From Prevotella sp. (lineage in GTDB: Bacteria > Bacteroidota > Bacteroidia > Bacteroidales > Bacteroidaceae): a stretch of DNA of 41,915 nucleotides. The translations under genes were made by a program, and so were the position numbers. Location of the stretch: assembly GCA_017410365.1 (NCBI GenBank), contig JAFQQY010000027.1, forward strand, positions 1 through 41,915, read 5' to 3'. Below, piece after piece: positions 15,926 through 41,915 of this stretch. The number at the start of each line of letters is the position of its first letter. Position 1 is the first letter of the stretch. A model generated the notes under the pieces. It did no database searches and had not been told where the DNA came from. It saw only the letters and a list, made by a program, of their open reading frames with translations.

Positions 15926-15933
15926 ATCAAAAG

Positions 15934-15999
15934 TGGTACAGTTACGATAGCTAACCGATACAGTTAAGTGTGCTAACTGGCACTGTTACGATTGCCAAA
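15934..15999. repeat. Array B: three tandem degenerate 22-nt units
   Basis: Units at 15934-15955, 15956-15977 and 15978-15999 follow the pattern (T/C)GG(T/C)ACAGTTA-N7-TAAC. The middle unit holds the dyad CAGTTA-N7-TAACTG; unit 1 keeps GTTA-N7-TAAC and unit 3 only the left half. The period (22) and dyad length (19) are the same as in array A, with a different sequence. Confidence 0.65.
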
Positions 16000-16149
16000 G
16001 GGCCGTAGTAATATTTTGATGAGGGGTTTAATTGTATAAGAACCATAAAACAGACAACATCATCACCTTGATTTGTAAAGATTTTTCATCATTTTAAGCC
16101 TAAAATCACAACGTCTTGATATTCAACATGTTGTAGATAACCTTATAGC

Positions 16150-16230
16150 GAAATGCCAGATTACGCATCAAGAAGTGCCAGATTACTAGTCGAGAAGTGC
16201 CAGTTTTCTATGCGCAATCTGGCATTTCTT
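16150..16230. repeat. Array C: three direct 22-nt units plus one inverted partial copy
   Basis: Direct units at 16150-16171, 16172-16193 and 16194-16215 share GAAGTGCCAGATTA at their start and vary in the last ~8 nt. GCGCAATCTGGCATTTC (16212-16228) is an inverted copy of the beginning of unit 1 with one mismatch, so the block can fold into a long hairpin. The period is again 22 nt. Confidence 0.75.
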
Positions 16231-16449
16231 GGTAGTAGGAAATCAGTTTGTCAAAAAATTTCATACATTTTCAGGTTCTAGTAATTGACAAGTCTGCTTG
16301 ATATTTAGTTTTACAAGTCCCTCTCTTTCTACGAGAGATATGGGGGCCACCCTTTTTCCTTGCTAGAAGAAGTTAGTTTGGATTACTACTCCTAAGGATT
16401 CTTGGGATTTAGGGAAATAAAGAAATAATTCGCAAAATTTGTTTAATTC
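16231..16449. other. Gene-free stretch with short dyads only
   Basis: No convincing ORF or RNA gene is seen. A TTTGTCAA...TTGACAAG dyad spans about 16247-16293, and a CTCTC/GAGAG hairpin lies at 16321-16337. The stretch 16000-16149 before array C is likewise empty except for a short CAACATGTTG palindrome. Confidence 0.4.
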
Positions 16450-16481
16450 GTTGTAGTTTAAAATATAATTTGTTACCTTTG
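16450..16481 (+). promoter_or_regulatory. Promoter of the structured RNA/leader
   Basis: TACCTTTG (16474-16481) is a full match to the -7 consensus. GTTG (16450-16453) stands 20 nt upstream as a near-match to the -33 TTTG. Transcription should begin near 16488, over 320 nt before the downstream ATG. Confidence 0.6.
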
Positions 16482-16487
16482 CCGTTG

Positions 16488-16767
16488 ACTTAGTCATTCT
16501 TTCGTGGACGGGCGGGTCAAGACATTTTGTATAACAATTTAAAACAATTTTGCCTATGGCATAAACAACAGACTTTTAATTAAGGACATACATATAGACA
16601 GAACTGTCGACTTTTGATTCTTGCTTTCTAAATTCGCCAAAATAAAGCTATCAAGAACTGAAGTAGATTAGTTCACGCTGTTAGCGTGGGCTTTTTACTC
16701 GTATAGGATAGCAAGGTGTTTGGCGATACCTAGAAAGCGTAGACGATGTAATTTGTCCACGTTTTTT
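16488..16767 (+). ncRNA. Candidate structured RNA or cis-acting leader of about 280 nt
   Basis: Nested pairings can be read directly. P1 is CGTGGAC (16503-16509) with GTCCACG (16755-16761). P2 is GCTTTCTA and CGCCAAA (16623-16641) with TTTGGCG and TAGAAAGC (16719-16738). P3 is GCTATC (16647-16652) with GATAGC (16707-16712). P4 is GTTCACGCT-GTT-AGCGTGGGC (16671-16691), followed by TTTTTA. P1's 3' strand can instead pair locally with CGTAGAC (16738-16744), forming a hairpin before TTTTTT (16762-16767). Two terminator-like hairpins and a competing pairing suggest an attenuating leader for the BspA-like gene, or an independent small RNA. I see no tmRNA, RNase P, SRP or known riboswitch core; an Rfam family I do not recognise is possible. 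Confidence 0.55.
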
Positions 16768-16814
16768 ATTTGTATTTTCGAGTAAACATTAACAATTTAA
16801 ATATAGAAAAAATT

Positions 16815-18449
16815 ATGAAGAAATTTATTTCATTATTAGCACTATTAATAACTAGTAGTTATTTATATGCGTATGATTTTGAAGTGGATGGAATCTTTTA
16901 TAACATCACCTCTATTGAGAACAAAACTGTTGAGGTTACCTATTCAACGGATTTGAATTATCAGCAAAACCGTGTGGTGATACCATCAGAAGTCACATGG
17001 GGCAACTATAACTTTACAGTTAAAGGGATTGGCCCCTGTGCTTTTGATGGGTTCAATTACCCAAACAGAGTTGATACAATCATTATTTCTAAGGGAATCG
17101 AGTATATTGGAAGTTTGGCTTTTCAAAGTTCAAATCTAAAAATGATTCGTATACCTAATACAATCAAGAATATAGGTGATAATGCTTTTTCTCCTGGCAA
17201 TAAACACGACCAATCAATAGATTGGTATGTGGATGATTTTGAATGGCTTTGCACAATTGGACATCACTTTAGCTCATATACAATAAAGAATATATATGTG
17301 AATAATGTAAAATTGGAAGGGGATATTATTATTTCTAATGGTGTTCCATTTATTAGTTCAATTTTTAATGGCTTTGAGTGGATAAAGACTTTAACTATAG
17401 CCTCATCGGTTTCGTACATAACAACATATGCATTTCAAAATAGTAAAAAAATGGAGTCTGTTACATTTATGGAAGGTGTTAAAAGAATAGGATCCGTTGC
17501 CTTTAGAAATTGTACTAGCCTTAGAAATATATCATTACCTAATAGCTTAACTTGTATTGATGGCGGAGCCTTTGAGAACTGTCCAGCCCTTATGGATGTT
17601 CAGAGTTATATTACAGAACCATTCCCTACAGATGGTTTTACTAATGGACAATATCTTAGTGCCACATTGACGGTACCACATGGAACAAAAGCAAAATACA
17701 TGGCTGTTGATGGATGGAAGAACTTCGCTAATATACAGGAACGTGATGGGTGTTCATATACTATAGATTTGTCTGTTATAGGAAATGGGACATTGAAAAT
17801 GAACGAAGAGACGCTCGGAGATTTTATAATAGCTGACAAAAATTCAAATATTTCAATACGATGTGTACCAAATGAAGGATACAAACTAGAAAAAGTCACT
17901 ATAGATGATATAGATATCACAAACAATGTTATTAATAATGTTATTACAATAGAAGGAATAAAGAAGAATTGCAAATTAGAAGTAACCTTTGCTAAGATCC
18001 CCATTTCATTGACTATTCAGCACGCAGAGAACGGCTACCTGAAGCAGTTCGTTGAGCGAGGTGCAAACATTAAATTTGCAATTGTGCCAGCAGACGGGTG
18101 GAAGATAAATACCATAGTCTATAATGGCTATGACGTAACGTCAGAATTGAACGACGACAAAGAATACACCACTCCTGCTATTAACGCAGATGCCATGTTA
18201 TCTATATCATTCGAGTCAACTCAGAGCGCAATTAATTCAGCACGAATAACCTATGCGAAGGTCTATGGTTCCAATGGAGAGATTGTGATTTCAGGCACTG
18301 GAAAAGGTGACGCAATATATGTTTACGATGATTGTGGTAAAATAATTGCCCAAACCGTTGCAAATAGCACAGAACAGAGAATTGCTATTCAAGCGAAAGG
18401 CATTTATATCGTCAAAGTAGGCGGAAAGACAGTGAAGGTATGTCTATAG
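16815..18449 (+). CDS. BspA-like leucine-rich repeat secreted protein with C-terminal sorting-type domain
   Basis: I start at the ATG at 16815, because the in-frame TTG at 16770 precedes a signal peptide by 15 unlikely residues. The signal peptide is MKKFISLLALLITSSYLYA. Residues ~55-310 hold LRR_5/BspA-type repeats such as VDTIIISKGIEYIGSLAFQSS and MESVTFMEGVKRIGSVAFRNC. Two InlB B-repeat-like beta modules follow (about 311-470). The tail (about 475-544) with GDAIYVYDDCGKIIAQ and KGIYIVKVGGKTVKV looks like a type IX secretion C-terminal domain. BspA-like proteins are surface adhesins. Its long leader contains the structured RNA. Confidence 0.85.
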   Translation: MKKFISLLALLITSSYLYAYDFEVDGIFYNITSIENKTVEVTYSTDLNYQQNRVVIPSEVTWGNYNFTVKGIGPCAFDGFNYPNRVDTIIISKGIEYIGSLAFQSSNLKMIRIPNTIKNIGDNAFSPGNKHDQSIDWYVDDFEWLCTIGHHFSSYTIKNIYVNNVKLEGDIIISNGVPFISSIFNGFEWIKTLTIASSVSYITTYAFQNSKKMESVTFMEGVKRIGSVAFRNCTSLRNISLPNSLTCIDGGAFENCPALMDVQSYITEPFPTDGFTNGQYLSATLTVPHGTKAKYMAVDGWKNFANIQERDGCSYTIDLSVIGNGTLKMNEETLGDFIIADKNSNISIRCVPNEGYKLEKVTIDDIDITNNVINNVITIEGIKKNCKLEVTFAKIPISLTIQHAENGYLKQFVERGANIKFAIVPADGWKINTIVYNGYDVTSELNDDKEYTTPAINADAMLSISFESTQSAINSARITYAKVYGSNGEIVISGTGKGDAIYVYDDCGKIIAQTVANSTEQRIAIQAKGIYIVKVGGKTVKVCL

Positions 18450-30582: not shown

Positions 30583-30606
30583 AAAAAATCTTCTTCACAA
30601 AAGAAG
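30583..30606 (-). terminator. Terminator of the tRNA operon
   Basis: On the minus strand CTTCTT-TTGTG-AAGAAG (30590-30606) is followed by ATTTTTT. It begins one base after the last tRNA. Confidence 0.75.
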
Positions 30607-30679
30607 AGCGGAAAACGAGGCTCGAACTCGCGACCCCAACCTTGGCAAGGTTGTGCTCTACCAACTGAGCTATTTCCGC
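30607..30679 (-). tRNA. tRNA-Gly (GCC)
   Basis: A full cloverleaf on the minus strand: acceptor GCGGAAA with TTTCCGC, D arm GCTC...GAGC, anticodon stem CAACC-TTGCCAA-GGTTG giving GCC, and T loop TTCGAGC. The discriminator is U and CCA is not encoded. The 72-nt body is identical to the copy at 30942. Confidence 0.97.
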
Positions 30680-30693
30680 AATTCTTAATGTTG

Positions 30694-30777
30694 TGAAGGG
30701 AATGAGACTCGAACTCACACGTCACAATTGACACTACCCCCTCAAAGTAGCGCGTCTACCAATTCCGCCATCCCTCC
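30694..30777 (-). tRNA. tRNA-Leu (GAG)
   Basis: A class II tRNA with a long variable arm. It has acceptor GGAGGGA with TCCCTTC, anticodon stem-loop CTACT-TTGAGGG-GGTAG reading GAG, T loop TTCGAGT and discriminator A. CCA is not encoded. Confidence 0.96.
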
Positions 30778-30806
30778 AACATATAAAAATGTTGAATAAA
30801 AAAGAG

Positions 30807-30888
30807 TGCCCAGAACAGGACTCGAACCTGCACACCTCTCGGCACACGCACCTGAAACGTGCGCGTCTACCAATTCCGCCACCTGGGC
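30807..30888 (-). tRNA. tRNA-Leu (CAG)
   Basis: A class II tRNA. It has acceptor GCCCAGG with TCTGGGC, anticodon stem-loop CACGT-TTCAGGT-GCGTG reading CAG, variable arm TGCCGAGAGGTG, T loop TTCGAGT and discriminator A. Confidence 0.96.
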
Positions 30889-30940
30889 ATTTTAAATCAT
30901 AAAGACCAACTCTTTATGCTCTTTTTTGTTCATTATGTTG

Positions 30941-31013
30941 AGCGGAAAACGAGGCTCGAACTCGCGACCCCAACCTTGGCAAGGTTGTGCTCTACCAACT
31001 GAGCTATTTCCGC
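30941..31013 (-). tRNA. tRNA-Gly (GCC), second identical copy
   Basis: The same 72-nt body and U discriminator as the tRNA at 30607, placed first in the operon. The two copies bracket the two leucine tRNAs. Confidence 0.97.
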
Positions 31014-41807: not shown

Positions 41808-41824
41808 CTCGTCTGAAAAAAGAA

Positions 41825-41915
<91 letters not shown>

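Follow-up and report, generated by a model that had tools for sequence, protein, structure and literature searches.

The Bacteroidota are abundant in the gut and the rumen and, to our knowledge, few cis-regulatory RNAs have been described in this phylum. In riboswitch-type transcription attenuators, a compact pseudoknotted domain can decide whether a terminator or an antiterminator forms. The tetQ leader of the Bacteroides element CTnDOT contains a very short upstream open reading frame (uORF), four codons long according to PMC12121999, together with an attenuator that lies upstream of the gene and is listed as translational in the accessible text of two papers (PMC12121999; PMC5418344). The ToiL uORF of Escherichia coli topAI-yjhQ senses ribosomes stalled at its start codon and alters the downstream fold (excerpts of PMC12121999), and short ORFs reminiscent of leader peptides have been noted in long 5' UTRs of Bacteroides thetaiotaomicron (excerpts of PMC7366714). 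Neither the literature, subscription papers aside, nor Rfam yielded a system matching the element described below, and the accessible portions of four further papers (PMC8040213, PMC7160235, PMC8632094 and PMC5972666) contain nothing that matches it.

The window, by which we mean the whole 41,915-nucleotide stretch of Prevotella sp. DNA analysed here, carries such an element in front of a gene for a BspA-type protein (Table 1). Its structured RNA core (16600-16767, 168 nt) is one of eight copies found in its own genome by covariance model R1, which was built from 29 aligned copies; DNA similarity alone recovers two close copies there, each before a BspA-like gene, and one remote copy. As lower bounds, given the stricter filters applied to searches of more than 40 genomes, and counting the source genome each time, R1 hits 95 of 151 family genomes, which span 23 of 30 genera, and 48 of 149 from the order; with the broader model R2 the tally for the phylum is 23 of 198, five of them beyond the class. 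A DNA match is present in at least 85 of 200 genomes of the same genus, again including the source genome, a lower bound because three candidates were scored per genome. Among the matches listed, named carriers of the motif include numerous assemblies of ruminant-gut Prevotella as well as Prevotella ruminicola KHT3. The first-pass annotation recognised no named RNA here and Rfam 15 agrees: no family matches the window leader above its gathering threshold (the best sub-threshold matches include L20_leader, with 20 and 17.9 bits against the 58.7 needed), four divergent copies from the same genome have no match up to E 0.5, and eight copies from beyond the order have none either. The window leader exemplifies an RNA element that is absent from Rfam and extends, through related copies, to other classes of the phylum. 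For the comparisons that follow, 222 matches were pooled and one antisense match (L140) and duplicate cores were removed, giving 206 distinct copies that are mostly best-scoring matches rather than random draws; 55 loci of the pool came via one DNA pattern (55 of at least 80 loci with the pattern were searched).

Table 1. Features of the leader and presumed target gene in the window
Feature	Position	Strand	Basis
Promoter element TACCTTTG	16474-16481	+	read in sequence
Minimal uORF ATG GCA TAA (Met-Ala-stop), context GCCTATG	16556-16564	+	
Segment a, 5' arm of alternative helix a-a'	16601-16623	+	cognate duplex test, pair counts
P1, 5' strand (partner 16732-16738)	16623-16629	+	covariation
Segment c (partner c', 16719-16726)	16634-16641	+	covariation
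P2, 5' strand (partner 16707-16712)	16647-16652	+	covariation
Segment a' (partner a, 16601-16623, or g, 16693-16702; overlapping)	16652-16674	+	cognate duplex test
Segment f, 5' strand of hairpin f-f' (antiterminator in preferred model)	16670-16679	+	covariation
Segment f' (partner f or h)	16683-16692	+	cognate duplex test
Segment g (partner a' or h)	16693-16702	+	cognate duplex test
P2, 3' strand	16707-16712	+	covariation
AGGT (16714-16717)/ACCT (16728-16731) stem around c', pseudoknot with c-c'	16714-16731	+	covariation
Segment c'	16719-16726	+	covariation
P1, 3' strand	16732-16738	+	covariation
Local hairpin CGTAGAC/GTCCACG with A.C mismatch	16738-16761	+	3' part is strand h
Strand h, can pair with f'g instead of forming the local hairpin	16743-16761	+	
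U run (T6) of presumed intrinsic terminator	16762-16767	+	
BspA-type leucine-rich-repeat protein gene, presumed regulated	16815-18449	+	Pfam

An attenuator-type leader with two alternative folds had been proposed in the first-pass annotation, which suggested folding and covariation in homologues as checks. The leader stretch has a predicted energy of -76.4 kcal/mol (z -3.5) and beats all 200 dinucleotide shuffles, and RNAalifold finds 39 pairs in 29 aligned copies, 18 of them with compensatory changes. In alignment A3 (105 copies, 101 distinct rows), which like A8 was fitted to the main fold, here called state 2, and so favours it in the pair counts and in the tests outside the order, all 42 main-fold pairs, pseudoknot included, show two-sided changes; 96.9% of cells are paired, against 36-47% in slid controls, and none of 500 shuffles does as well. 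By helix, two-sided changes occur in 7/7 pairs of P1 (99.1% of cells paired), 7/7 of c-c' (99.6%), 6/6 of P2, 9/9 of hairpin f-f' (98.9%) and all three core pairs of the AGGT/ACCT stem (96.0%). Helix c-c' comes in three sequence types in the 29-copy alignment, and the pseudoknotted core also contains conserved unpaired letters. A MAFFT alignment of the 206 copies, made free of any model, places the strongest covariation in P1, c-c' and P2 and also recovers the AGGT/ACCT pseudoknot (columns 129-140, one pair) and one pair of a-a'. The first-pass pairings of 16623-16641 with 16719-16738 and of 16647-16652 with 16707-16712 are thus both present and covary in homologues.

Further pairings, above all that of 16601-16623 with 16652-16674 (a-a'), compete with this fold and were not in the first-pass annotation. 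They were assessed by a cognate test, likewise independent of a model-fitted alignment, in which the duplex energy of two segments taken from one copy is compared with that of segments taken from different copies. Across the 206 copies the cognate pairing wins for a-a' (t=18.8), f'g-h (t=7.9) and a'-g (t=5.1), and the local hairpin at 16738-16761 gives t=5.4; P1, c-c' and P2, which served as positive controls, give 25.5-43.6 and four negative controls -2.1 to -0.1. Segments vary little within the window's own subclade of 67 copies, where support is weak for a-a' (t=2.3) and the local hairpin (3.0) and nil for a'-g (0.1) and f'g-h (0.2). In the 27 copies from beyond the order the cognate pairing is better for a-a' in 25, for f-f' in 27 and for f'g-h in 27 (t=9.2), with negative controls near zero, and a'-g is not significant (t=1.7, 14/27). 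In the competing fold, state 1, 92.0% of cells are paired, whereas shuffles give 87.9% and none of 500 is as high; 14 of its 20 pairs show two-sided changes, three of the 20 belonging to the pseudoknot stem that it has in common with state 2. The leader is therefore best described, as far as comparison of homologues can tell, by two mutually exclusive folds, one of which would end in a stem beside the U run.

Folding predictions suggest how the two states might relate. Folding with the helices of state 2 disallowed yields both helices of state 1 in 182 of 206 copies, and as the leader RNA of the window is lengthened stepwise, a-a' is predicted to form first and to be replaced later. RNAfold makes state 2 more stable than state 1 by a mean of 11.3 kcal/mol over the 206 copies, and in their minimum-energy folds strand h has arm a as its partner in 139, lies in the local hairpin in 59, pairs with f'g in just 3 and stays largely unpaired in 5; state 1 would therefore have to be kinetic or assisted. 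The pairing of arm a with h, at the extreme 5' and 3' ends, was set aside despite its frequency in these folds because its covariation is weak (t=3.9). The sequence GTCCACG (16755-16761), which precedes the last T6, had been credited with two upstream partners and read as the mark of a switch. A switch between two partners is supported; one of the partners named then, 16503-16509, is not conserved. It pairs with GTCCACG in the predicted minimum-energy fold of the full leader transcript, the fold of the core containing the local hairpin instead, but of three close copies the window copy alone has it, the sister copies L002 and L003 having no CGTGGAC between promoter and core, and it was rejected as a conserved partner. 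The conserved alternative partner is 16684-16691 (GCGTGGGC).

The element ends in at least six T in 8 nt in 194 of 206 copies against 30 of 205 in the control. Which stem serves this U run is a matter of interpretation. The first-pass annotation had taken the hairpin at 16671-16691 and the T5 behind it as terminator-like, and a simple terminator scan of the window likewise flags a hairpin at 16670-16692 with its T run and not 16738-16761. The hairpin is present and conserved. Its T5 is not, most rows of the 29-copy alignment having T3 to T4 before ACTCG, and for this reason we reject it as a terminator and read it as an antiterminator. In the model that we prefer, f'g-h would be the ancestral terminator and f-f' the antiterminator; the terminator loop would be long, at about 40-60 nt. 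Among the 202 of 206 copies scored, the f'g-h duplex averages between -15.4 and -17.4 kcal/mol in the window-like, intermediate and distant groups alike, and a local hairpin of -4 kcal/mol or better that touches the U run is found in 88/114, 23/48 and 10/40, respectively. Since this local hairpin would be compatible with state 2 in the window-like copies, ON and OFF could be reversed, with state 2 terminating through 16738-16761 and state 1 (a-a' plus f'g-h) acting as the antiterminator. Such a reversal would fit the covariation of the hairpin, its contact with the U run in most window-like copies and its formation when the core of the window copy is folded to minimum energy. We nevertheless consider it the less likely sign, though one that may apply to the window's type, as the hairpin is found in just a quarter of the distant copies and holds h in fewer minimum-energy folds than arm a does, whereas f'g-h beside the U run is strong on average in every group and favoured in all 27 outside copies.

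Placement also bears on function. The window element lies between a promoter and a start codon, on the same strand as the gene, as expected of an attenuator. The promoter identified in the first-pass annotation, TACCTTTG, can be read in the sequence and is what we take to be a Bacteroidota-type -7 element; transcription would probably start near 16488, and the start codon of the gene lies 47 nt past the U run. The encoded protein has an N-terminal signal-like stretch, LRR_5 repeats (Pfam, E=7.2e-26) and a C-terminal DUF6383 domain (E=2.9e-7). Sufficient sequence is available for 196 copies; 173 of these are followed within 120 nt, and 189 within 300 nt, by an ATG ORF of 60 codons or more on the same strand, against 38 of 199 within 120 nt in a mirror control on the opposite strand. 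By a crude hydrophobicity rule, 134 of these 173 ORFs have an exported-like N-terminus, compared with 19 of 89 control ORFs. In Pfam scans of the A3 and A4 copies (119 of 128 downstream and 62 of 86 upstream ORFs), the 119 downstream proteins match 79 families, LRR_5 accounting for 23; as the copies precede unrelated genes, it is the leader and not the gene that is shared. The six downstream proteins scanned from beyond the order comprise four TonB-dependent receptors (plug plus carboxypeptidase-regulatory-like domain) and two sigma-70-like factors. Toxin-antitoxin-like genes occur upstream of several copies, some copies are close to contig ends, and one paralogous BspA leader in the same genome (L004) is without the element.

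One explanation for an RNA with a promoter-like sequence at one end and a U run at the other is a small RNA that acts in trans and lies near genes by chance. In 129 of 201 copies TAnnTTTG occurs no more than 260 nt upstream (45 of 201 in the reverse-strand control), and beyond the order an ORF follows within 120 nt in just 12 of 27 copies, at 137-275 nt in nine and not within 300 nt in six, which would suit such an RNA. It is improbable, however, in view of the close same-strand ORFs within the order, the conservation of competing folds at the 3' end, and the 69 of 201 copies that have no TAnnTTTG after an upstream gene ending no more than 220 nt away. Much less probable still is a mobile repeat, MITE-like or an attC-like cassette site, carried as DNA and structured only as a by-product. 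The multiplicity of the element would agree with this, as would the contig ends, the toxin-antitoxin-like neighbours and the L004 leader; the orientation, which is mostly gene-forward, and the compensatory changes that preserve RNA pairs of two competing folds would not. A blastn search with the window leader as query found no match among phages and plasmids, so that an origin there was rejected, and integron- or AID-like cassette sites were rejected because the array-like pairs look like leaders of separate genes.

The leader had been described as free of ORFs. No long ORF does occur before the ATG at 16815, but a minimal uORF is present at 16556-16564. Within the order, a start codon in a GCCTATG-like context precedes the core by 24-65 nt, in most cases by 28-48 nt. 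Of the 146 copies with this context, 137 have a stop in its frame after 0-2 codons, compared with 15 and 28 in the other two frames; 136 of 1033 control ATGs are followed by a stop at that distance. Counting only distinct 12-mers, an in-frame stop is found in 95 of 103 and stops in the other frames in 7 and 5, a comparison in which frame 0 offers three codon slots and the others two. Without regard to context, AUG plus 0-2 codons plus stop is found in 163 of 206 copies against 32 of 402 control windows. Grouped by likeness to the window, the counts are 100/117, 42/49 and, for the most divergent copies within the order, 21/40; beyond the order it is 1/27. The 176 frames with a stop end in TAA (105), TGA (36) or TAG (35) and would encode MG (33), M (24), MT (18), MVT (10), MDR (8), MR (8) and other peptides, with no conserved control codons or arrest peptide among them. 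As the second codon varies, it is the reading frame and not the peptide that is kept, and a uORF of this size, conserved within an order, is an unusual regulatory feature. A hairpin that would mask the uORF start codon through a GACATA box was rejected, its cognate pairing being no better than chance (t=-2.1), and a longer uORF from the upstream ATGTNNAACC box was set aside by eye.

Another possibility is that the element is a metabolite or ion riboswitch, with the P1/c-c'/P2/pseudoknot domain as aptamer and a uORF that was added later, or is incidental, within the order. The pseudoknotted core is strongly conserved, unpaired letters included, matches occur in other classes of the phylum, and 26 of 27 copies from beyond the order have the core but no minimal uORF. 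Most metabolite riboswitches, however, have targets that share a pathway, and no common pathway is apparent among the 79 Pfam families seen downstream. We regard this reading as a serious rival, with a probability of somewhat more than one in three.

With a probability of about 0.75, and on the strength of sequence comparison, we propose that this leader RNA acts in cis and switches between two states, serving as a transcription attenuator mostly before genes for exported proteins and perhaps in addition as a riboswitch. Covariation, the 3' U run and placement upstream of same-strand genes together support the unnamed, attenuator-type switch of the first-pass annotation, which had missed the minimal uORF, the spread through the phylum and the link to exported proteins. 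Because the two mutually exclusive folds lie just before a U run, the RNA probably decides whether the next gene is transcribed. In state 1, arm a would pair early with a' and so free g and f', which would pair with h beside the U run as a terminator and stop transcription near 16767. In state 2, a' would pair with g and hairpin f-f' would form, both locked by P1, c-c', P2 and the AGGT/ACCT pseudoknot into a long compact fold; f' would then be unavailable to h and the polymerase would continue into the gene. Strand h, if held by arm a as in most minimum-energy folds, would also be kept from f'g in state 2. Premature termination at the U run, the identity of the ON state and the signal are parts of this model that we infer.

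Within the order, ribosome loading at the uORF, or stalling there of initiating or terminating ribosomes, may bias the choice of fold. Ribosomes stalled by tetracycline are reported at +16 to +18 from start codons in the accessible text of PMC12121999. A ribosome stalled that far from the uORF start would leave arm a uncovered, since the uORF ends upstream of it. A broader suggestion, which we offer tentatively and think rather less than evenly likely, is that these leaders form an ancient, phylum-wide class of switch that places many unrelated exported-protein genes per genome under one signal, read within the order through the start-stop-like uORF. If so, the surface repertoire would be opened or closed by translation status, that is, by initiating or terminating ribosomes. 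With its two covarying folds, several copies per genome and strong bias towards surface and secreted proteins, the leader family offers a directly testable handle on surface regulation.

The element resembles several described systems in part. Like the FopS/GibS small RNAs of Bacteroides, it is a conserved multi-copy RNA of Bacteroidaceae that ends in a terminator, here a presumed one, but FopS, in the available description, has a single-stranded 5' stretch and one terminator hairpin and acts on other mRNAs, whereas the element here is a long pseudoknotted RNA placed as a leader (PMC11697453). Membership of that family was rejected, as 42 nested and pseudoknotted pairs contrast with the unpaired 5' seed and single hairpin described there (excerpts of PMC11697453). 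From riboswitch-type attenuators it differs in targets without a common pathway and, within the order, in the uORF in front. ToiL is similar in that a uORF alters a downstream fold, but it exerts translational control over a Shine-Dalgarno site, and the accessible text describes neither a pseudoknotted core nor a U run (PMC12121999). The tetQ leader is closest in spirit, coming from the same phylum and having a very short uORF and an attenuator before the gene. As far as the accessible accounts of it go, tetQ is one resistance gene, whereas the element described here occurs in many copies before unrelated, mostly exported-protein genes, ends in a U run and has a uORF whose coded dipeptide is not conserved.

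One paralogous BspA-like leader in the window's own genome (locus L004, positions 180-300, on contig C52) is without the entire RNA element. The sequence on the promoter side and that on the start-codon side are both present at this locus, and the leader looks as if the element had been lost from it or had never been acquired.

Two short boxes recur around the minimal uORF and the core (see table). The first, [A/T]TGTNNAACC, was recognized by eye about 30 nt 5' of the uORF in many window-type copies of the element. Within the order, copies repeatedly carry the second, GGACATA/GACATAT, directly 5' of the core, and no covarying partner was found for it.

Features of the window, in order of position
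Feature	Position	Strand	Remarks
Imperfect short repeats	15930-16240		Gap preceding the leader; e.g. ACAGTTAAGTGTGCTAACTGGC and GCCAGATTACGCATCAAGAAGTGCCAGATTACTAGTCGAGAAGTGCCAG; by eye
Box [A/T]TGTNNAACC	around 16529-16537		Followed by an A-rich stretch, then the GCCTATG uORF; by eye
GGACATA/GACATAT box	around 16590-16598		Between uORF and core
Four-gene tRNA cluster	30606-31013	minus	Two tRNA-Gly(GCC) flanking two tRNA-Leu
5S rRNA gene	41821-41915		Incomplete, extends past window end

Toxin-antitoxin-like genes appear frequent directly 5' of element copies, as judged from raw counts in a scan of 62 of the 86 upstream neighbours in alignment A7. Among these 62, and with families that overlap, we counted HepT-like (5), nucleotidyltransferase (4), PIN (4), HEPN (3), DUF2442 (3), ParE (2) and Zeta toxin (2) genes. 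Downstream, copies from outside the order lie 227-228 nt 5' of TonB-dependent receptor genes (L287, L290, L305 and L310) or 100-137 nt 5' of sigma-70-like genes (L295 and L309), and most of these six copies have a TTTGCGATTCTTC-like promoter region.
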